Shown: positions 6,354 to 45,812 of the stretch, in pieces | Numbering within the stretch: the first letter of the stretch is position 1 | Layout of the letters: each line of letters opens with the position of its first letter | Origin: Flavobacteriales bacterium | GTDB taxonomy: Bacteria; Bacteroidota; Bacteroidia; Flavobacteriales_F; PHOS-HE28 | NCBI GenBank assembly: GCA_024103275.1 | Contig: JAGFIV010000123.1 | Coordinates: forward strand, 1 to 45,812 | DNA: 45,812 nt | Direction: 5' to 3' | Notes under the pieces: generated by a model | Database searches by the model: none | Seen by the model: only the letters and a program-made list of their open reading frames with translations | What the model was told of the DNA's origin: nothing | Position numbers and translations under genes: made by a program

Positions 6354-9140
6354 GTGGACACTTCCTCCATCACCTACGTGGGTGAACACATTTGGGCCGG
6401 GCGGCTGGGCCATTTCCTCACCATCCTCTCCGTGGCCTCCGCGCTGTTCGCGCTGATCAGCTACGTCCTCCACACCCGCACCCAGGACCCCGGCTGGCGC
6501 ACCTTGGGCCGCCTGTTCTTCCGCATCCAGTCGGTCGCCATCATCGGCATCGTGGTGACGCTGTTCATCATGCTGTTCAACCACTGGTTCGAGTACGACT
6601 ACGTGTGGAAGCACAGCAACACCGAGATGCCGCTGCGCTACATCGCCAGCTGCTTCTGGGAGGGCCAGGAGGGCTCCTTCCTGCTGTGGGCCTTTTGGAC
6701 CATGGTGCTGGGCAACCTGCTGGCCTGGACGGCCAAAAGCTGGGAAGGCCCGGTGATGGCCGTGTTCGCGCTGGTGCAGGTGTTCCTGGCCACGATGTTG
6801 CTGGGCATCTACGTACTGGGCGCCAAGGTGGGCAGCAGCCCCTTCATGTTGATCCGCGAGCTGCCCGAGAACATCGGCCTGCCGTGGACGCGGATGGCGG
6901 ACTACCTCGCCGTCATCCCGCAGTTCAAGGACGGGCGCGGCCTGAACCCGCTGCTGCAGAACTACTGGATGGTGATCCATCCCCCGGTGCTGTTCCTGGG
7001 CTTCGCCGCCACGCTGGTGCCCTTCGCATACGCCATTGCCGGGTTGTGGACCAAGCGCCTGAAGGAATGGATCACCCCTGCCCTGCCGTGGACCTTCTTC
7101 GGCGTCGGCATCCTGGGGGCGGGCATCCTGCTGGGCGGTGCCTGGGCCTATGAATCGCTCAGCTTCGGCGGTTTCTGGGCATGGGACCCCGTGGAGAACT
7201 CCTCCCTCGTCCCCTGGATCACCCTGGTGGGCACCGGCCACCTGATGCTGATCAACAAGCGCAAGGACACCTCGCTCTTCAGCACCTTCCTGTTCGCGCT
7301 GGTCACCTTCATCATGGTGTTGTACAGCACCTTCATGACGCGCAGCGGCGTGCTGGGCGACACCAGCGTGCACAGCTTCACCGGCGAGGGCATGATGGCC
7401 GGCCTGCTGATCTTCCTCCTCCTGTTCATCGCCCTGGCGGTGGCCCTGCTGAACCAGCACCGGTCCGACCGCCTGTTCTACCTCGGCCTCTGCGCGCTGA
7501 TGCTGGTGCTGGGCACCACGCTGCGCGTGCAGGTGCCCGCGATCATCCTCTTCGGGGCGGCCAGCACCGTGATGACCGTGGTGGCCTTCCGCAAGGGCGG
7601 TTTCCGCAGGCCCGACGAGGAGAACACCCTGAGCCGCGAGTTCTGGCTCTTCATCGGCTCGCTGGTGTTGCTGCTGAGCGCCGCACAGATCACCTTCAGC
7701 ACCTCCATGCCCGTGTTCAACCTGCTGATGGAACCCTTCCAGGGCCTGTTCGGGAAGCTGTACGGGGCCACCGGATGGGACTGGGCCCACACCCTATCCG
7801 AACTGAAGCTGGCGCCGCCCGTGGAGGCCAAGGCCCACTACAACAAATGGCAGATCCCCTTCGCCTTCCTGGTGGCCATGCTCATCGCCATCGGGCAATA
7901 CCTGGCGTACAAGAAGACCGATCGGCGCAAGTTTTTCCGGTCGTTGGCCTTCTCGTTCTTCGCGGCATTGGCCATCACCGCGGTGGCCACCTGGGCGCTG
8001 CACTACAAGCTGCACGAGGCCAACCTGGTGGCCCTGCTCTTCGCCACGGTGTTCGCCGCGCTGGCCAATGCGCTGTATATCCCCAAGGTGCTGAAGGGCC
8101 GCATGGCCAAGGCCGGACCGTCCATCGCACACACCGGGTTCGCCCTGCTGCTGCTCGGGTCGTTGATCAGCATGAGCCGGCAGGACAAGATCAGCCACAA
8201 CACCTCGGGCCCCACGCTGAGTTTCCTGAACAAGGACTTCAACGACAGCCAGGACATGCTGCTCTACCTGAACGACACGGTGCCCATGGGCAACTATTTC
8301 GTCACGTTCAAGGGCAAGCACCAGGAGCGGGTGAACCTGCACTATGACATGGACTACCTGGCGGCGGTGCCCAGCACCTACCGTGCCGGCGACACGGTGC
8401 GCGTGCGCAGCATGCTGTTCGTGGCCAAGGACGACCACACCGCGGGCGACCAGTTCCTGCCGGACCAACCCGCGCATTGGGAACCGCTGGAGACCTTCTC
8501 GCGCGGACAGCTGTGGCGGGCACCCTACTGGCGGCCGCGCATGCCGGGGGCCAAGGAATTCTCCCTGTCGCCGCTGGTGCAACTGAACCCGCGCTTCGGC
8601 AACGTGGCCGAGCCGAGCACCAAGCACTGGGCGCACCGCGACATCTACACGCACATCCGCTACGCCAAGCTGGACACCACCACGGACGGCTTCATGCCCT
8701 CACGCCTCTATGAAAAGAGCGTGGGCGACACCATCGTCACCCCGGTGTGCGTGATCTTGATCGACAGCATACGCACCGTGCGGGACAGCGTGACCGTGAC
8801 GCGCCTGGGCTCCGATTTCACCGTGTACGTGCTGAACATGCGGGTGCGCGACCTCTACGACCAGCATCGTTGGTTCGAGGCGAAGCCCGTGGTGATCTAC
8901 CACAACGACCAGCCCGTGGGCAGCAAGGGTTTCGAGATCCCCGAGCTGAACGTGAAGTTCGACCTGGCCACGGTGAAGGGCGACAAGGTGGGCGTGGAAG
9001 TGAGCGAGCGCGAGTTCGTGATCATGCAGGCCATCCTGTTCCCCGGCATCAACATCCTATGGATCGGGGTGATCCTGATGGTGATGGGCACCTTCCACAG
9101 CGTGTGGCACCGGCTGTCTACGGCCGTCAGGAAGAAGTGA
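6354..9140 (+). CDS. ccmF: Cytochrome c haem lyase CcmF
   Basis: A 928-residue polytopic membrane protein that ligates haem to apocytochrome c. The diagnostic WWD domain is clear at about residues 261-287: GGAWAYESLSFGGFWAWDPVEN, flanked by conserved regions NPLLQNYWMVIHPPVLFLGF upstream and TRSGVLGDTSVHSF downstream. There are many transmembrane helices, and from about residue 620 a large soluble C-terminal periplasmic domain as in other Bacteroidota CcmF. The start is GTG 6354, 49 nt after ccmE; no upstream ATG fits. It is the last gene of the ccm operon. Neither CcmG nor CcmH is present. Confidence 0.92.
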   Translation: MDTSSITYVGEHIWAGRLGHFLTILSVASALFALISYVLHTRTQDPGWRTLGRLFFRIQSVAIIGIVVTLFIMLFNHWFEYDYVWKHSNTEMPLRYIASCFWEGQEGSFLLWAFWTMVLGNLLAWTAKSWEGPVMAVFALVQVFLATMLLGIYVLGAKVGSSPFMLIRELPENIGLPWTRMADYLAVIPQFKDGRGLNPLLQNYWMVIHPPVLFLGFAATLVPFAYAIAGLWTKRLKEWITPALPWTFFGVGILGAGILLGGAWAYESLSFGGFWAWDPVENSSLVPWITLVGTGHLMLINKRKDTSLFSTFLFALVTFIMVLYSTFMTRSGVLGDTSVHSFTGEGMMAGLLIFLLLFIALAVALLNQHRSDRLFYLGLCALMLVLGTTLRVQVPAIILFGAASTVMTVVAFRKGGFRRPDEENTLSREFWLFIGSLVLLLSAAQITFSTSMPVFNLLMEPFQGLFGKLYGATGWDWAHTLSELKLAPPVEAKAHYNKWQIPFAFLVAMLIAIGQYLAYKKTDRRKFFRSLAFSFFAALAITAVATWALHYKLHEANLVALLFATVFAALANALYIPKVLKGRMAKAGPSIAHTGFALLLLGSLISMSRQDKISHNTSGPTLSFLNKDFNDSQDMLLYLNDTVPMGNYFVTFKGKHQERVNLHYDMDYLAAVPSTYRAGDTVRVRSMLFVAKDDHTAGDQFLPDQPAHWEPLETFSRGQLWRAPYWRPRMPGAKEFSLSPLVQLNPRFGNVAEPSTKHWAHRDIYTHIRYAKLDTTTDGFMPSRLYEKSVGDTIVTPVCVILIDSIRTVRDSVTVTRLGSDFTVYVLNMRVRDLYDQHRWFEAKPVVIYHNDQPVGSKGFEIPELNVKFDLATVKGDKVGVEVSEREFVIMQAILFPGINILWIGVILMVMGTFHSVWHRLSTAVRKK

Positions 9141-36431: not shown

Positions 36432-36575
36432 ATGGAATTCAAGCTCCGCCCCTTCCCTCCCGAGGACCTGGCCGAACTGGTCCGGTTGGCACGCGGGGCC
36501 AATGGTTCCCGTGGACGTGGATGGACGCGGATCGCGCCCATCCACGTCCATTGCAGCGTCTGGTCAGTCTTTTGA
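36432..36575 (+). pseudogene. Truncated GNAT acetyltransferase N-terminus
   Basis: MEFKLRPFPPEDLAELVRLA is the typical first strand and helix of GNAT acetyltransferases (LRPWRPEDLxxLVRxANN). Similarity stops after about 24 residues and the frame ends at 36575 inside the convergent toxin gene; no acetyl-CoA loop remains. Confidence 0.5.
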
Positions 36576-36857
36576 ATAGCGCTTCAACGGGCGTTGGTGC
36601 ATATGGCGGATGCGGTGCAACACCACTGTCCGATCAACAACCGAATAAATAATGACGTACTTGAACCGATCCAACAATGCAAAACGATATGGCGGCCGGC
36701 GCATTTGATAGGCTCTTGGATGTCGGCGAAGACGGTTCACTTCGGCATCCATGGCGGCTTCAACCCGCGCTTCGGAACCATCCTTCCGATCACGATGCCA
36801 CACCATGATCCTCCGCAAGTCGTTACGCGCTCCTTCGCGGAAAACCACCCGTATCAT
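36564..36857 (-). CDS. ParE/RelE-family toxin
   Basis: A 97-residue small basic protein of the ParE/RelE fold. Seen: VVFREGARNDLRRIMVWH at the N-terminus (conserved helix after the first strand), MRRPPYRFALLDRFKYVIIYSVVDRTVVLHRIRHMHQRP at the C-terminus with the strand pattern YxxIYxxxxxxVxVxxIxHxxRxP. The His-Arg at the end is typical of ParE-like members, whose targets range from gyrase to ribosome-bound mRNA. It overlaps the antitoxin stop by four nt (ATGA), so it is translated after it. Confidence 0.85.
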   Translation of the reverse strand: MIRVVFREGARNDLRRIMVWHRDRKDGSEARVEAAMDAEVNRLRRHPRAYQMRRPPYRFALLDRFKYVIIYSVVDRTVVLHRIRHMHQRPLKRYSKD

Positions 36858-37437: not shown

Positions 37438-39483
37438 ATGCAACTCCAGAACTACGCCTGCGGCCAATGGGTGGCCGGCACCGGCAAACAGACTGAGCTC
37501 ACCGACGCCGTCACCGGCGAGACCATCGCCACCACTTCCAGCAACGGCCTCGATTTCGGCGCCATGCTGCGCTACGCCCGCGAGACCGGCGGGCCACCCC
37601 TGCGGCGCATGACCTTTCCTGAGCGCGGCCGCATGCTCAAGGCCCTCGCCCTCTACCTGATGGACCGCAAGGACGAGTTCTACCAGGTGAGCTACCGCAC
37701 CGGCGCCACCAAGGCCGACAGCTGGGTGGACATCGAGGGCGGCATCGGCAACGTGTTCGCCAACGCCAGCCTGCGCCGAGCCCTGGGCAACATGCCCTTC
37801 TACGTGGACGGCGACGCGGTGAAGACCAGCAAGGGCGGCACCTTCATCGGCCACCACATCATGGTGCCCAAGGAGGGCGTGGCCGTGCACATCAACGCCT
37901 TCAACTTCCCCATCTGGGGCATGCTGGAGAAGTGCGCCGTGAACTGGATGGCCGGCATGCCCGCCGTGGTGAAGCCCGCCACCGTGACCAGCTACCTCAC
38001 CGAGGCCATGGTGAAGGCCATCATCGAAAGCAAGATCCTCCCCGAGGGTGCGCTGCAGCTGATCGTGGGCGGCGCGGGCGACCTGCTGGACCATGTGGAA
38101 AGCCAGGACGTGGTCACCTTCACCGGCAGTGCCAGCACCGGCCGCATGCTGAAGGTCCACCCGCGCATCGTGGCCGAGAGCGTGCCCTTCAACATGGAGG
38201 CCGACAGCCTGAACAGCATCGTGCTCGCACCCGACGCGGTGCCCGGCACGCCCGAGTTCGACCTGTTCGTGAAGGAGGTGGGCCGCGAGATGACGCTGAA
38301 GTGCGGCCAGCGCTGCACCGGCGTGCGCCGCATCATGGTGCCGGAGAACCTGGTGGACGACGCCCAGCAGGCCATCGCCAAGCGCCTGGCCGGCACGGTG
38401 ATCGGCGACCCGCGCGCCGAGGGCGTCCGCATGGGCTCGCTCGTGGGGCCCGCCCAGCGCGAGGAGGTGCGCGCCAACCTGAAGAAGCTGCTGGAAGGCA
38501 GCACGCTGGTGTACGGCAACCCCGACAGCGTGGAGGTCACCGGCGCGGATGCCAAGAAGGGCGCCTTCATGAGCCCCGTGCTGCTGCGCAACGACGCACC
38601 CTGGACCAACCGCCAAAGCCACGAGGTGGAGGCCTTCGGCCCGGTGAGCACGCTGATGCCCTACACCGACCTCGACGAGGCCATCGCCCTGAGCAAGCTG
38701 GGCAAGGGCAGCCTGGTGGCCACCATCGCCACCCACGACCCGAAGCACGCGCAGCAGTTCGTGTGGGGCGCGGCCAGCCACCACGGCCGCATGCTGGTGC
38801 TGGACCGCGACATGGCCAAGGAGAACACCGGCCACGGCTCGCCCTTGGCCACGCTGGTACACGGCGGCCCCGGCCGCGCGGGCGGCGGCGAGGAGATGGG
38901 CGGCAAGCGCGGCGTGCTGCACTACCTGCAACGCACCGCCATCCAAGGCCACCCCACCGTGATCACAGCGCTGGCGCAACAATACCAGCAGGGCGCGGCC
39001 TTCCGCGAAACGGAGCGCCACCCCTTCCGCATGCACTTCGAGGAACTGCAGGTGGGCGACACCGTGATCACCGCCAAGCACACCGTCACCGAGGCCGACA
39101 TCCACAACTTCGCCAACGTGAGCGGCGACAACTTCTACGCCCACATGGACGCCACCAGCCTGGAGGGCACCATCTTCACCGGCCGCGTGGCCCACGGCTA
39201 CTTCGTGCTCAGCAAGGCCGCCGGCCTCTTCGTGGACCCGAAGAAAGGCCCCGTGCTGCTCAACTACGGCATCGACGAGGCCCGCTTCACCAAGCCTGTC
39301 TACCCCGGCATGACCATCGGCGTGAAGTTCACCGTGAAGGAGAAGATCGACCAGGAGAAGAAGAGCGAGGACGACGTGGCCAAGGGCATCGTGAAGTTCC
39401 TGGTGGACGTGTACGACGAGACCGGCGAGACCGTGGCCATCGCGACGATATTGACGATGGTGAGGAAGCTGGAGCAGAAGTGA
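37438..39483 (+). CDS. paaZ: Bifunctional oxepin-CoA hydrolase / semialdehyde dehydrogenase PaaZ
   Basis: A 681-residue two-domain enzyme of phenylacetate degradation. The N-terminal aldehyde dehydrogenase (about 1-520) has HINAFNFPIWGMLEK, VVKPATVTSYLTEAM, FTGSASTGRML and the catalytic Cys in KCGQRCTGVRRIMVP. The C-terminal MaoC-like hotdog hydratase has FEELQVGDTV, FANVSGDNFYAHMD and GRVAHGYFVLSKAAGLFVDP. It opens the oxepin ring and oxidises the resulting semialdehyde-CoA. ATG 37438 matches the family start (MQ-LQNY-CGQW); ATG 37420 would add six residues. Its last 262 bp are repeated at 40451-40712. No other paa gene is in the window. Confidence 0.92.
   Translation: MQLQNYACGQWVAGTGKQTELTDAVTGETIATTSSNGLDFGAMLRYARETGGPPLRRMTFPERGRMLKALALYLMDRKDEFYQVSYRTGATKADSWVDIEGGIGNVFANASLRRALGNMPFYVDGDAVKTSKGGTFIGHHIMVPKEGVAVHINAFNFPIWGMLEKCAVNWMAGMPAVVKPATVTSYLTEAMVKAIIESKILPEGALQLIVGGAGDLLDHVESQDVVTFTGSASTGRMLKVHPRIVAESVPFNMEADSLNSIVLAPDAVPGTPEFDLFVKEVGREMTLKCGQRCTGVRRIMVPENLVDDAQQAIAKRLAGTVIGDPRAEGVRMGSLVGPAQREEVRANLKKLLEGSTLVYGNPDSVEVTGADAKKGAFMSPVLLRNDAPWTNRQSHEVEAFGPVSTLMPYTDLDEAIALSKLGKGSLVATIATHDPKHAQQFVWGAASHHGRMLVLDRDMAKENTGHGSPLATLVHGGPGRAGGGEEMGGKRGVLHYLQRTAIQGHPTVITALAQQYQQGAAFRETERHPFRMHFEELQVGDTVITAKHTVTEADIHNFANVSGDNFYAHMDATSLEGTIFTGRVAHGYFVLSKAAGLFVDPKKGPVLLNYGIDEARFTKPVYPGMTIGVKFTVKEKIDQEKKSEDDVAKGIVKFLVDVYDETGETVAIATILTMVRKLEQK
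39222..39483 (+). repeat. 262-bp direct repeat, left copy (3' end of paaZ)
   Basis: It aligns without gaps to 40451-40712 (offset 1229) with eight mismatches, about 97% identity. It ends exactly with the paaZ stop codon TGA. Confidence 0.95.
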
Positions 39484-40450: not shown

Positions 40451-40712
40451 CGGCCTGTTCGTGGACCCGAAGAAAGGCCCCGTGCTGCTCAACTACGGCA
40501 TCGACGAGGCCCGCTTCACCAAGCCTGTCTACCCCGGCATGACCATCGGCGTGAAGTTCACCGTAAAGGAGAAGATCGACCAGGAGAAAAAGTCCGAGGA
40601 CGACGTGGCCAAGGGCATCGTGAAGTTCCTGGTGGACGTGTACGACGAGACCGGCGAGACCGTGGCCATCGCGACGATCTTGACGATGGTGAGGAAGTTG
40701 GAGCAGAACTGA
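40451..40712 (+). pseudogene. Displaced second copy of the paaZ 3' end
   Basis: It encodes the last 86 residues of PaaZ (FVDPKKGPVLLNYGIDE ... MVRKLEQ, ending in Asn instead of Lys) with the stop codon intact, but without a start or the rest of the hydratase domain. Most of the eight differences from the left copy are silent, so the copies separated while under selection, or come from two closely related strains. It is probably the original end of paaZ, cut off when the module arrived. Confidence 0.85.
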
Positions 40713-40738: not shown

Positions 40739-40983
40739 ATGAACTCAAATCCTGAACTGCTCAAGCGGATCACCGTGGATGACCGGATTTGCAACGGCAA
40801 GCCCGTGATACGGGCATGCGGACCACGGCGCAGACCGTGCTGGAGTTCCTGATGGCAGGCACACCGGAGGACGAGGTGCTGAAACAGTACCCCATGCTGG
40901 AAGCGGCGGACCTGGAGGCTTGCCGCCAGTTCGCACTATCGCTCAAGGGCAACAGCTTTTCCGTGAAGGACATCGCGGCCTGA
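40739..40983 (+). pseudogene. DUF433 antitoxin gene with one frameshift
   Basis: MNSNPELLKRITVDDRICNGKPVIR is the DUF433 N-terminus (LLxRIxxxPxIxxGKPxIRG). After CGGG at about 40811-40815 the frame shifts by one base and the family sequence continues MRTTAQTVLEFLMAGTPEDE, VLKQYPMLEAADLEACRQFA to a TGA at 40983. Restoring one G gives a full-length (about 82-residue) protein. Its promoter is intact, so the inactivation is recent, or the shift is a sequencing error. Confidence 0.75.
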
Positions 40984-41109
40984 GATGCCTCGTTCCTCGT
41001 CGATGCCAACCTCCCCCGCTGGTTCAGCCAGTGGAACACCCCGGACTATGTGCATCAGCATGACATCGGCCCGGCAGAACACGATGCCAGGATCGAGGGG
41101 GTGCGGTGA
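40984..41109 (+). pseudogene. Truncated DUF5615 (PIN-like) toxin
   Basis: Directly after the DUF433 stop the frame reads FLVDANLPRWFSQWNTPDYV and HQHDIGPAEHDARIEG. FLVDANLP with the acidic Asp is the DUF5615/PIN nuclease signature, and DUF433-DUF5615 is a known pair. There is no in-frame start codon, and the protein stops after about 40 of the usual about 110 residues, so the toxin is dead. Confidence 0.7.
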
Positions 41110-41137: not shown

Positions 41138-41210
41138 TGCAGGATTGTCCTATGTTCTCTACGTGGACCGCGCGGTTCCGGATTTGCATAGGACATGGGA
41201 CAGTCCTGCA
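41138..41210. repeat. Inverted repeat upstream of the helicase operon
   Basis: TGCAGGATTGTCC (41138-41150) pairs with GGACAGTCCTGCA (41198-41210) with one mismatch, and GTCCTATG (41147-41154) pairs with CATAGGAC (41187-41194). The 248-nt gap 41110-41357 has no gene; its AT-rich middle (about 41229-41262) may hold the promoter. Confidence 0.5.
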
Positions 41211-41357
41211 AGGGGCGGGTTTGCGGGTCAATTAAAAAATCGTCATACTCGTAAATTTTCCCTCAATGCCTGACGACCGCCAACCGAAATTCCGCAGAGA
41301 TGATGTTTCTTGTACCCACGGATCCAGCGATGACGCTTGATCCGTCCGGAGTGTGAC

Positions 41358-44300
41358 ATGCCCACCATCTACGACAATATCGATCAGAAGCTCCTCGAAG
41401 GACTGCGGGAGAGCCTACGCCTGAGCTTCCGTGGCGACTTCTGTACCGGCTATCTGAACCTGCGCGGCTGGAAGGACATCGCCGGGGAGGTCGGTGATCT
41501 TGAAGGGGGCGAAGGCAAGCAGGTCCGCCTGCTTGTAGGCATGCAACGCACGCCGGAGGAAGAGGTGATGATCGCCTACGCAGCTGGCAGCAGCAATCCA
41601 GTGGACCAGGGGAAGGTGATCCGGTTGAAGGAAAAACTGGTCCTTGAACTGCGTAACCAGCTTACGCGCGGGCAACCGACGGACCAGGATGAGCGGGGCC
41701 TCCGTCTCTTCGCCGACCAGATGCGCGAAGGCAAGGTGGTGGTGAAGCTCTTCCTGAAGTATCCCTTGCACGCCAAGCTCTACCTCGCCTTCCGGGATGA
41801 TAAGATCAACCCCATTATGGGCTACGTGGGCAGCAGCAACCTCACGTTCGCGGGCTTGCAACGCAATGGCGAACTGAATGTGGATGTGCTGGACAAGGAT
41901 GCCGCCAATAAACTCGCTACCTGGTTCGAGGAACGATGGTCCGACCGCTGGGCCATGGACATCACCAAAGAGCTGATCGAGATCATCGACCAGAGCTGGG
42001 CCGGTGAAGTGCAGCACCTGCCCTACCATGTGTACATGAAGGTGGTGTACCACCTGAGCAAAGAAGCCCGGATCGGGCTTGAAGCCTACGACATTCCCTT
42101 GGTGTTCCAAGGAAAGCTCCTCGACTTCCAGCAAGAGGCGGTGCGCATGGCGGCCAACGTGTTGAACAAGCGTGGCGGTGTGCTCATCGGTGACGTGGTT
42201 GGCCTGGGCAAGACCTACACCGCGGCCGCCCTGATCAAGCTGGTTGAAGAGAATGATTTTCTCAAGACCTTGATCGTATGTCCGCCAAAACTGGAGGGCA
42301 TGTGGAATGATTACAAGCAGGAGTTCGACCTCAAGGCCGAGATCCTTTCCATCGGTGCCTTGGACACCAAGGTGCTGGATAACCTGAAGCGCTATAAGCT
42401 GATCGTGGTGGATGAAAGCCACAACCTTCGCAATCCGGAAGGAAAGCGTTACCGGGCACTGCACGAATACATCCGCTTCAACGGCAGCAAGGTCGTGCTG
42501 CTTACGGCAACCCCGTTCAACAAGGATTTCCTTGACATCGGCGCCCAACTTGGGCTCTTTTTGGACAAGGAGGCCGACCTGGGCCTGAGTCCTGAACGAC
42601 TGATCGCGGAGATCGGGGGAGCGCACGAGTTCAATGCGCGCTTCCAGGTGGTTCCCCAAACACTCGCAGCATTCGAAAAAAGCCCCTACCCGGACGATTG
42701 GCGGGACCTGATGAAGCTCTTCACGGTCCGCCGTACGCGTTCCTTCATCATGGAGCATTTCGCGCACGCCGATCCGGGCAACGGGCGGAAGTACCTCCAA
42801 TTCCAGGACGGCAGTCGCTCCTACTTCCCGGAGCGCATCCCAAGGGCCTTCCTCTACGGCTTCGACCCCAATGATCCCCAGGACCAGTACGCCAAGCTCT
42901 ACAGCCCGTACGTCACCGGTGTGATCGCACAATTGCACCTGGCACGGTACGGCCTGCGCCTGTACATCGACGATGCCCAACCCGCCACCGAGGCACAGCT
43001 TCGCATCATCGACGACCTCAGCCGTGCAGGCAAACGGATGATGGGGTTTGCCCGCACCGGTTTGTTCAAGCGATTGGAAAGCAGCGGTCCGGCTTTCCTC
43101 AAGTCACTGCAACGCCACATCCTGCGCAACCACTTGGTGATGCATGCCTTGGACCATGACCTGGAGGTGCCGATCGGTCAGCATGACCAGGATCTGTTTG
43201 AAAATGCCGTGGACGACCAGGAGCCCGAAGAGATCTATAACGCCGATCAAAAGGTTCGTACTGCCAGCTACAAGGAAGAGGCGGCGCAGCTCTATGCGGC
43301 CCTGCTCCTGCCCAAGCACAAGAAGCGGTATAAATGGCTTCCTGCCGTGTTGTTCAAGAAAACCCTGCGCAAGCACCTGGAGGAGGATGCACGGTTGCTG
43401 GACCATCTGCTGCAGCAGGGCAAGGACTGGGACCCGATGCAGGACAAACAGTTGCAGAAGCTTGTCCGGTTCTGCTCCGTGGAGCATGGCAAGGAGAAGG
43501 TCCTGCTCTTCACCCAGTACGCAGACACGGCCAAGTACCTCTTCGAGGAATTGGTGAAGCAGGGTGTGAAGGGCGTGGCGGTGGTCACGGGGGAGAATGA
43601 AGCGCCTTCCGCCATCGTTGAGCGATTCAGCCCTGTGAGCAACCACAGGCCCCAATTGGCAGGCACCGACCGTGAACTGCGCGTGCTCATCAGCACCGAT
43701 GTGCTCAGTGAGGGCCAGAACCTCCAGGATTGCCACATCATCATCAATTACGACCTGCCATGGGCGCTCATCCGCCTGATCCAGCGCGCGGGCCGTGTGG
43801 ACCGCATTGGCCAAAAATCCGAGCAGGTGCTCTGTTACAGCTGCCTGCCGGAGGATGGCATCGAAACGATCCTCGGCCTGCGCGGTCGCATCAGGCGTCG
43901 CATCGCCGACAATGCCGAAGTGGTGGGCAGCGATGAGCAGTTCTTCGAGGGTGATCCGGTGAACCTGAATGCCCTCTATGCGGAGAAAAAGGGCCTGCTC
44001 GACCAGGAGGACGACAGCGACGTGGACATGGGGAGCATGGCCTACCAGATCTGGAAGGATGCGCTTTCCCGTGACCCCGCACTGGAAAAGACGATCCAGC
44101 AGCTGCCCGATGTGGTATACAGCACCAAACGGCTCTCCGATGCCGAACGGGAGAGCCCGGAAGGTGCAGCCGTGTTCGTGCGCACCAGCAACGAGAATGA
44201 TATGCTGATCTGGGTCGACTCCAAGGGGGAGCTCGTAACGCAAAGCCAGTTCCGCATCCTCAAGGCGATCGGATGCGAACCCGGCACCGCCCCCGTGGAG

Positions 44301-44702
44301 CGACTCGAGGACCACCACCGGGTCGTGGGCAGCGGGGTGCGGTACGTACAGGCCAATGAGGACAAGCTGGGCGGCCAGCTTGGCAACAAACGCGGCGCAC
44401 GCTACCAGGTGTGGACGCAATTGAGCCGCCATTTCGAGGACAACCGTGATACGCTTTTCGCCCAACAGGTCCTGAAGGAGGCCTTGGACGAAGTATACCG
44501 GTGGCCCCTGCGCGAGCGCGCCAAGGACCTGCTTAACCGCCGTCTGCGCGAGCGAGTCTCCATCGAAAGCCTCGCCGAACTGGTCATCAGCCTGCACGAG
44601 GACAATCGCCTGGTGCACAAGCCCGACGATCTGGACGATCTCAACGGAATGCGCCAACCCAGGATCATTTGTTCCATGGGATTGAGGAAGCCCGGCACCT
44701 GA
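41358..44702 (+). CDS. PLD-domain SNF2-type helicase (defence-associated)
   Basis: 1114 residues. The N-terminal phospholipase-D-like domain has HAKLYLAF (HxK, about 137) and GSSNLTFAGLQRNGELNV (about 157). The SNF2/SF2 ATPase follows: DFQQEAVRMA, Walker A GDVVGLGKTYTAAAL (about 277), DESH box VVDESHNLRN (about 351), LLTATPFNKD (about 382), KVLLFTQY (about 714), STDVLSEGQNLQ and QRAGRVDRIGQ (about 804). The C-terminal about 270 residues have no named domain. Such PLD-helicases accompany Eco57I-like modification enzymes and other restriction systems, where they translocate on or cut unmodified DNA. ATG 41358 gives MPTIYDNIDQKLLEGL; the upstream ORF adds only seven codons. Confidence 0.87.
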   Translation: MPTIYDNIDQKLLEGLRESLRLSFRGDFCTGYLNLRGWKDIAGEVGDLEGGEGKQVRLLVGMQRTPEEEVMIAYAAGSSNPVDQGKVIRLKEKLVLELRNQLTRGQPTDQDERGLRLFADQMREGKVVVKLFLKYPLHAKLYLAFRDDKINPIMGYVGSSNLTFAGLQRNGELNVDVLDKDAANKLATWFEERWSDRWAMDITKELIEIIDQSWAGEVQHLPYHVYMKVVYHLSKEARIGLEAYDIPLVFQGKLLDFQQEAVRMAANVLNKRGGVLIGDVVGLGKTYTAAALIKLVEENDFLKTLIVCPPKLEGMWNDYKQEFDLKAEILSIGALDTKVLDNLKRYKLIVVDESHNLRNPEGKRYRALHEYIRFNGSKVVLLTATPFNKDFLDIGAQLGLFLDKEADLGLSPERLIAEIGGAHEFNARFQVVPQTLAAFEKSPYPDDWRDLMKLFTVRRTRSFIMEHFAHADPGNGRKYLQFQDGSRSYFPERIPRAFLYGFDPNDPQDQYAKLYSPYVTGVIAQLHLARYGLRLYIDDAQPATEAQLRIIDDLSRAGKRMMGFARTGLFKRLESSGPAFLKSLQRHILRNHLVMHALDHDLEVPIGQHDQDLFENAVDDQEPEEIYNADQKVRTASYKEEAAQLYAALLLPKHKKRYKWLPAVLFKKTLRKHLEEDARLLDHLLQQGKDWDPMQDKQLQKLVRFCSVEHGKEKVLLFTQYADTAKYLFEELVKQGVKGVAVVTGENEAPSAIVERFSPVSNHRPQLAGTDRELRVLISTDVLSEGQNLQDCHIIINYDLPWALIRLIQRAGRVDRIGQKSEQVLCYSCLPEDGIETILGLRGRIRRRIADNAEVVGSDEQFFEGDPVNLNALYAEKKGLLDQEDDSDVDMGSMAYQIWKDALSRDPALEKTIQQLPDVVYSTKRLSDAERESPEGAAVFVRTSNENDMLIWVDSKGELVTQSQFRILKAIGCEPGTAPVERLEDHHRVVGSGVRYVQANEDKLGGQLGNKRGARYQVWTQLSRHFEDNRDTLFAQQVLKEALDEVYRWPLRERAKDLLNRRLRERVSIESLAELVISLHEDNRLVHKPDDLDDLNGMRQPRIICSMGLRKPGT

Positions 44703-44705
44703 ACC

Positions 44706-45536
44706 ATGAAGAAGCGTTCCATCAATGTAAAAGGCACCGAGGTGGCCGTGACCACTTTGCACAAGCAGGACTACATTTCCCTCACGGACATGGTAAAGGG
44801 CTTCGAGGGTGGAAGTGCTCTCATCGAGAACTGGTTGCGCGCGAAAGACACCATCCTGTTCCTCGGCGCATGGGAACATGTGAACAATCCCGATTTCAAA
44901 CCCCTCGAATTCGAGGGAATTAAGAACGAGGCCGGGCGCAACAGCTTCTTCCTTTCCGTAAAGCGCTGGTCACACTCCACGGGAGCGATCGGCATTGAGG
45001 CACGAACTGGTCGGTATGGCGGCACCTACGCCCATAAGGACATCGCCTTCGAGTTCGGCTCCTGGCTCAGCCCGGAGTTCAAGCTCTACCTCATAACCGA
45101 ATTCCAGCGGCTCAAAGAGCAGGAGGCCGACACCAGGTCGCTGGAGTGGAACGTGCAACGCACCCTGGCCAAGGTCAACTACCGCATCCACACCGATGCG
45201 ATCAAGGAGCATCTGGTCCCGCCGGTCTTGACCAAGGCGCAGATGAACGCCATCTACGCCAGCGAAGCCGACCTGCTGAACATGGCCCTGTTCGGATGCA
45301 CCGCCGCGGAATGGCGGCGCCGCAACCCCGGAAAAGAGGGCAATGTGCGTGATCACGCCACCCTCGAGCAGCTCGTGGTGCTCTCGAACCTGGAGAGCAT
45401 CAACGCCGTGCTGATCCACCAGGGACTGAACCAGTCCGAGCGACTGACCCAGTTGAACGGCACGGCCATTCTGCAAATGCGCTCGCTCCTCGGTGCGACT
45501 TCACTCAAGAAGCTCAATACGCCCAAGAAGCCATGA
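44706..45536 (+). CDS. KilA-N domain protein
   Basis: A 276-residue, phage-type DNA-binding protein. The KilA-N domain spans about 8-130: YISLTDMVKGFEGGSALIENWLR, FNSxF-like region NSFFLSVKRWSHSTGAIGIEA, GRYGGTYAHKDIAFEFGSWLSPEFKLYLITEFQRL. The C-terminal part (about 170-265) is helical, with VLTKAQMNAIYASEADLLNMALFG. It starts three nt after the helicase stop and precedes a modification gene, so it belongs to the same operon. KilA-N proteins in restriction/defence loci may act as regulators or specificity factors; the role here is inference. Confidence 0.88.
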   Translation: MKKRSINVKGTEVAVTTLHKQDYISLTDMVKGFEGGSALIENWLRAKDTILFLGAWEHVNNPDFKPLEFEGIKNEAGRNSFFLSVKRWSHSTGAIGIEARTGRYGGTYAHKDIAFEFGSWLSPEFKLYLITEFQRLKEQEADTRSLEWNVQRTLAKVNYRIHTDAIKEHLVPPVLTKAQMNAIYASEADLLNMALFGCTAAEWRRRNPGKEGNVRDHATLEQLVVLSNLESINAVLIHQGLNQSERLTQLNGTAILQMRSLLGATSLKKLNTPKKP

Positions 45537-45563
45537 TGCCACCCACAAGCCGACCACCGCGAC

Positions 45564-45625
45564 CCCGGCTCGGAGGCCGGGATGGCACCCCTCATCAACC
45601 CGCATGTCGTTCCGGGCTTGGCCCG
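45564..45625. repeat. Two short GC hairpins in the defence operon gap
   Basis: CCCGGC (45564-45569) pairs with GCCGGG (45576-45581), and CGGGC (45613-45617) with GCCCG (45621-45625). They look like pieces of dispersed palindromes inserted in the 100-nt gap between the KilA-N gene and the next gene. Confidence 0.45.
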
Positions 45626-45636
45626 CCAATCGACCC

Positions 45637-45812
45637 ATGAGCACCACCATCACACGCGCCCGCTTCAAGGAGCTGCTCACCCAAGCCGCCATCGGCGAGC
45701 TTTTCATCGAGCTCGGCTGGGACCATGCCGACGACGCCCTCGCCGTGGAGGCCGGCAAGGCCAGGCACCAACTGCGCACCGTGGCCAACAAGCGCGGCTT
45801 CGCCGTGCTGGT
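45637..45812 (+). CDS. Eco57I-type restriction-modification enzyme, N-terminus (cut by window edge)
   Basis: 58 complete codons from ATG 45637 to the window end. RARFKELLTQAAIGELFIELGWD followed by VEAGKARHQLRTVANKRGFAVL is the characteristic N-terminus of type IIG/Eco57I-like methyltransferase-nuclease proteins (FxxLxxxPxxxxLFxELGWD ... Y-L-xVAEKRGFxV). The methyltransferase motifs would lie to the right of the window. As the third gene of the run helicase, KilA-N, modification enzyme, it supports a restriction system. Confidence 0.7.
   Translation, partial: MSTTITRARFKELLTQAAIGELFIELGWDHADDALAVEAGKARHQLRTVANKRGFAVL

Follow-up and report, generated by a model that had tools for sequence, protein, structure and literature searches.

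The right-hand end of the contig analysed here raises the question of what a gene for a phage-type DNA-binding protein, carrying a KilA-N domain, is doing between the two core genes of an apparent restriction system. The contig (GenBank assembly GCA_024103275.1, contig JAGFIV010000123.1; hereafter the window) is a stretch of 45,812 nucleotides from a Flavobacteriales bacterium; within its Bacteroidota genome of 3.58 Mb it bears the number C67. Three consecutive genes, all on the plus strand and with intact reading frames, encode a PLD (HKD)-SNF2 helicase fusion, the KilA-N protein and an Eco57I-type adenine methyltransferase. The first-pass annotation had read this row as a restriction-like operon starting at position 41138; Pfam matches and intact frames bear out the three genes, while the first of them begins some 220 bases further downstream. 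On balance, we favour the view that a mobile gene for a DNA-binding accessory defence protein, kept under selection, has settled in a restriction system, the function of the KilA-N protein being one that we infer.

The helicase gene (ATG at 41358, stop at 44702, plus strand) encodes a protein of 1,114 amino acids with matches to the Pfam domains PLDc_2 (5.5e-10), SNF2-rel_dom (1e-10) and Helicase_C (8e-16), and its position upstream of the methyltransferase, together with the Pfam and PADLOC matches, identifies it as a probable restriction nuclease and translocase. The PLD motif (HAKLYL...GSSN, residues 137-160) lies at positions 41769-41840, and the helicase motifs GLGKT (Walker A), DESH and QRAGRVDRIGQ at 42201-42215, about 42411 and about 43782, respectively. 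Both the PLD motif, in the form HxK...GSSN, and the helicase signature QRxGRxxRxGQ were conserved in all 66 homologous helicases inspected.

The KilA-N gene (44706-45536, plus strand) starts 3 bases past the helicase stop codon and encodes 276 amino acids. It is followed by a gap of 100 bases (45537-45636) and by the first 58 codons of the methyltransferase gene (45637-45812, plus strand), for which homologues favour the ATG at 45637 as the start. The final 127 bases of the window recur exactly at an end of contig C62 from this genome, and the minus strand of C62 (G000:C62, L003) completes a BrxX-like methyltransferase of 1,118 amino acids; a further 127-base overlap joins contigs C62 and C15. 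An assembly artefact at the contig end was rejected because the two contigs match at every base of the overlap and the protein obtained by joining them aligns with its relatives over the full length. The completed protein contains the adenine methyltransferase motifs I (DPTCGSG) and IV (NPPY) and matches Eco57I in Pfam (8.5e-23), in agreement with the initial description of the truncated third gene, and NPP[YF] was conserved in 75 of 76 methyltransferases of the family. The closest methyltransferases of solved structure are BrxX proteins. The final 200 residues at the C-terminus fall outside the family profile, as would be expected of a target-recognition region.

The same annotation had called the third gene type IIG-like, and in the strict sense this label was not supported. 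The methyltransferase matches the PADLOC profile REase_MTase_IIG (PDLC03628) over most of its length (872 bits, residues 5-901), yet an alignment of 40 methyltransferase N-termini revealed no conserved D...(E/Q)xK nuclease motif. The residues D93, Q99 and W101 are present in 30, 39 and 40 of these sequences, respectively, with Q99 and W101 occupying the positions where the ExK of a nuclease would be expected. A structural model of this region, of moderate confidence (predicted local distance difference test, pLDDT, 82), returned no Foldseek match below an E-value of 0.001 and gave weak fold matches to a racemase (Z 6.0, the best), the restriction-type domain 9y1l (Z 5.0) and DrdV (Z 4.9). A nuclease in the N-terminus found no support in motif conservation or Foldseek and was set aside as unlikely, although a degenerate nuclease fold is possible. 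Given the lack of a nuclease motif in the methyltransferase, type IIG is probably a misnomer for this protein and, for the same reason, cutting can be placed in the PLD domain of the partner helicase, where the motif is invariant.

The 84,980 species genomes scanned contain at least 80 methyltransferase loci; the 80 listed were drawn by similarity to the query and span many bacterial phyla. In 73 of these 80 a helicase gene precedes the methyltransferase on its strand (72 detected by gene calling and one, L099, by tblastn), and in 55 of them the gap between the two genes is shorter than 60 bases, the genes usually overlapping or touching. In one locus (L148) the helicase lies downstream of the methyltransferase, and the other non-conforming loci are incomplete or not resolved. 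The methyltransferase family was found in 11 of 395 sampled genomes of the phylum; every complete locus in this sample has a PLD-SNF2 gene immediately upstream, with gaps below 60 bases in all the first-found complete Bacteroidota loci save two that carry KilA-N. These data point to the PLD-SNF2 and methyltransferase pair as a widespread two-gene core system, which probably cleaves the DNA of invading viruses and appears to have been mislabelled as type IIG.

Several described systems resemble this pair in part. In the Type-2 BREX-related (BR; BREX, bacteriophage exclusion) systems, for which restriction of DNA lacking the modification is predicted (Rakesh and Krishnan 2026, PMC12839542), an HKD nuclease is likewise fused ahead of a Swi2/Snf2 helicase and accompanied by an N6-adenine methyltransferase. 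They are centred, however, on a DUF499 ATPase (PF04465), which is missing from 15 of the 16 genomes with the pair, including that of the window, and they nearly always carry DUF3780, for which inspection, without a dedicated search, found no candidate between or beside the core genes. The PADLOC entry C3a139 (HKD+Snf2) matches the window helicase at 185 bits, far short of those of its members that reach 400 bits or more. The combination of an SNF2 helicase and an adenine methyltransferase is also seen in class 1 of the defence island system associated with restriction-modification (DISARM), and the PADLOC profiles for DrmD and DrmMI match at 126 and 61 bits, respectively. Nevertheless, the NCBIfam match to DrmD (139.8 bits) is well under the cut-off of 610, and no drmA or drmB gene was seen on inspection of the operon flanks. 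Finally, the placement of a second defence module between restriction genes has a parallel in DarTG2 within type I restriction-modification systems (PMC12255303). Unlike DarTG2, a two-gene toxin-antitoxin system, the module here is a single DNA-binding gene that recurs in several system types.

The three-gene order of the window was found again in two other genomes, G137 (locus L048) and Kapaibacterium L143, which led us to reject a chance or artefactual gene order. The intervening gene is nonetheless missing from nearly all of the approximately 90 occurrences of the pair. Flavobacteriales UBA2426 carries the pair most closely related to that of the window (L099; helicase 61% and methyltransferase 56% identical); its two genes overlap by a 4-base ATGA with no KilA-N between them, and in the next relative (L100) the junction is occupied by a different gene, encoding a 23S-IVP/zinc-ribbon protein of 279 amino acids. 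Since the closest relative has the pair without the insert, the KilA-N gene is, judging from these comparisons, dispensable to the pair and a guest rather than part of its core. In the methyltransferase tree the loci bearing KilA-N are scattered in a way that suggests five insertions, one of them (L183) on a very long branch, and in the helicase tree G137, L143 and L117, a Pedobacter locus with a decayed copy, form one group separate from the window. A scenario of many independent insertions was dropped on account of that long branch and of the grouping in the helicase tree, and the gene is taken to have been acquired by the pair at least twice. L183 represents a third acquisition, by a much more distant helicase and methyltransferase; on this viral contig (L183:2553-12145) the distant PLD-SNF2, KilA-N and methyltransferase genes and an SMC-like ATPase gene stand in a row.

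Between G137 and L143 the KilA-N protein is 92% identical, the helicase 80% and the methyltransferase 65%, and the ratio of nonsynonymous to synonymous substitution rates (dN/dS) between these two intact embedded copies of KilA-N is 0.05, which indicates that the gene is under purifying selection. The possibility raised at the outset, that homologues might reveal the KilA-N gene as a lone phage remnant, is at odds with a gene that is intact, recurrent and selected, though accessory. In Pedobacter changchengzhani, the junction holds a decayed KilA-N gene (L117:9629-9960) that retains the first 76 codons and, in another frame, the last dozen, the middle being lost. Guests at the junction in other phyla include Bro-N (L154), ORF6N (L172), a MazE-type antitoxin (L134) and a GHKL/winged-helix protein (L160). 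KilA-N, Bro-N and ORF6N are DNA-binding domains of phage regulators, and their arrival at one and the same junction is suggestive, although the guests are few. A DUF29 gene was observed at the junction in Microcystis copies of the pair (L135:9443-9883 and L141:9486-9932).

The window protein belongs to the PADLOC family PDC-S22, whose profile it matches over the full length (428 bits, 2.4e-129, residues 1-272); matches to this family were detected in 52 of the 395 sampled genomes. Restriction genes flank the KilA-N gene on both sides in 13 of the 35 full-length loci examined, or in 15 of 37 Bacteroidota copies when the window and G137 are included. Ten of the 13 lie between hsdM and hsdS, and the others between hsdS and hsdR, between type III res and mod genes, and between an Eco57I-type methyltransferase and a GIY-YIG-type helicase gene. 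The embedding thus spans restriction-modification types I, II and III as well as the PLD-SNF2 pair, and embedded copies are co-oriented with their neighbours and often overlap them by 4 bases. The impression that a KilA-N gene between such genes is unusual is therefore correct for the pair, most copies of which lack it, but not for the family, which is repeatedly embedded in restriction-modification operons. Of the copies that are not embedded, some neighbour Pycsar or Tmn genes, some lie in prophages and some stand alone. Well-supported branches of the KilA-N tree imply at least ten changes between defence and other contexts; neighbours were labelled by BLAST against a small reference protein set, and some of these other contexts may contain unrecognised defence genes. 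The PDC entries reportedly go back to a 2024 preprint by Payne et al., which PMC12255303 cites and which screened for genes lying within defence systems. The placement of PDC-S22 within a PLD-SNF2 and methyltransferase pair was not found described in the literature searched, which also yielded no papers linking KilA-N to hsdM, PADLOC or anti-phage activity.

In the genus of the window, the helicase was detected in none of 12 genomes and KilA-N in four. One of these copies, 69% identical to that of the window, closes a row formed by a two-transmembrane (2TM) effector, a PycC cyclase and an E2 gene (L255:6639-9923), and a second comes after a type II methyltransferase. Stand-alone copies occupy a shared site (L256 and L257, approximately 6600-7480) beside genes that by eye resemble those of electron-transfer flavoproteins. 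Among viruses, one viral-contig KilA-N overlaps a Tmn gene, and in Staphylococcus phage EW the gene lies between a metalloprotease-type gene and an integrase gene.

The AlphaFold model of the KilA-N protein (pLDDT 89.5) comprises the DNA-binding domain (residues 10-138, positions 44733-45119; Pfam KilA-N, E 1.4e-20), followed by a long helix and a C-terminal helical bundle (45120-45521). No homologue was found among the sequences of solved structures at an E-value of 1. The domain model superimposes on the APSES domain of yeast Mbp1 (Z 7.5, 2.3 A over 83 residues), and the best match of the whole model is DdrC of Deinococcus radiodurans, titled a DNA-damage response protein in the Protein Data Bank (VIA Z 9.7 over 197 residues, root-mean-square deviation 7.4 A, 10% identity; Foldseek probability 1.00). 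DdrC binds DNA breaks. We regard this match as weak to moderate, its Z-score not being decisive since helical bundles often match by chance.

The data suggest a restriction system in which the methyltransferase would read its target through the variable C-terminal region and mark host DNA at adenine. Directed by this recognition, the PLD-SNF2 protein would travel along unmarked DNA, which its PLD domain would cut. The KilA-N gene would be a separately inherited module, now part of the operon after landing between the two core genes. Its product would bind DNA through the KilA-N domain, with the helical bundle possibly pairing two copies, and most likely acts alone as a second line of phage defence rather than in restriction. 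Of these steps, cutting by PLD, guidance to the target and a defensive role for KilA-N are inferred. Several observations weigh against this proposal. Restriction by the PLD-SNF2 protein is deduced from motifs, and the KilA-N fold would fit descent from a phage regulator equally well. The embedded counts include several near-identical hsdM/hsdS (type I) loci from one genus, so that events are fewer than loci, and on viral contigs KilA-N is mostly found without restriction flanks (53 of 56, with flanks in the remaining three). The literature searched yielded no published experiments on this KilA-N family, and PDC-S22 is a PADLOC candidate only, of a kind treated as unvalidated in PMC12813430.

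Among other explanations, the KilA-N protein could be the transcriptional regulator of the operon, timing the methyltransferase and the nuclease, much as a controller protein would, on entry into a new host. The domain is known from phage regulators, the protein matches a PHROG annotated as transcriptional regulator (3e-62), and the gene is co-oriented and tightly spaced with the restriction genes. We nevertheless deem this role somewhat unlikely. Operons with KilA-N begin with genes unrelated to one another (types I, II and III, Pycsar, Tmn), KilA-N being mostly internal, and a dedicated regulator fits less well because each of these unrelated promoters would need a binding site; moreover, most copies of the pair do without it. 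The scattered occurrence of the gene, its frequency on phages, satellites and plasmids, and the decayed Pedobacter copy would instead agree with a phage-derived or selfish passenger of no benefit to its host system. The low dN/dS, the repeated exact placement between co-oriented genes with 4-base overlaps, and the embedding of 15 of the 37 Bacteroidota copies in restriction operons all argue against such a passenger, which we regard as improbable.

An addiction-type arrangement, in which KilA-N would be the toxin or guard and would penalise cells when the restriction system is lost or inhibited, finds precedent in the toxin-antitoxin pairs documented within type I systems (DarTG2, PMC12255303) and in the MazE-type antitoxin among the other junction guests. 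It appears quite improbable for a protein with no recognised enzymatic motif, with no antitoxin partner beside it and encoded alone in many genomes. The position between both core genes in the window, G137 and L143 might even suggest an obligatory third subunit of the restriction complex, which the absence of the gene from nearly all loci of the pair, the closest relative included, makes very hard to sustain. Returning to an accessory defence gene, a broader and distinctly tentative extension is that the KilA-N family, together with the Bro-N and ORF6N proteins at the junction, descends from phage regulators and serves as an immune accessory that can be moved between mechanistically unrelated systems (restriction types I-III, helicase-methyltransferase pairs, Pycsar and Tmn), perhaps detecting phage DNA that is broken or being replicated and stepping in upon failure of the host system. 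Annotations usually treat KilA-N proteins as phage regulators, and here one family lies inside or beside several kinds of immune operon, under purifying selection; should such proteins turn out to work in defence, a large number of annotations of this kind would have to be reconsidered.

The surroundings gave little support to the defence island that had been proposed around the operon. Downstream of the methyltransferase, genes identified by eye through the C62/C15 overlaps comprise an unassigned open reading frame followed by LemA-like, nucleotidyltransferase-like and malic enzyme genes, along with gliding-type genes, and no additional defence genes were seen; the upstream neighbour is paaZ. 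The toxin-type and dead genes noted earlier on this side are real. A ParE-type toxin gene lies at 36564-36857 on the minus strand (Pfam 6e-8), with a short upstream open reading frame that has no Pfam match. Positions 40739-41106 hold a frameshifted DUF433 antitoxin-type gene (Pfam 1.9e-10 for its second half) and, after it, a fragment that resembles its toxin partner, without a Pfam match. The 3' end of paaZ is duplicated (39222-39483 and 40451-40712; 262 bases, 96.9% identical), leaving an orphan open reading frame of 83 amino acids. From 41358 onward, the operon has a G+C content of 0.58-0.59, compared with 0.634 for the window, in line with recent acquisition.

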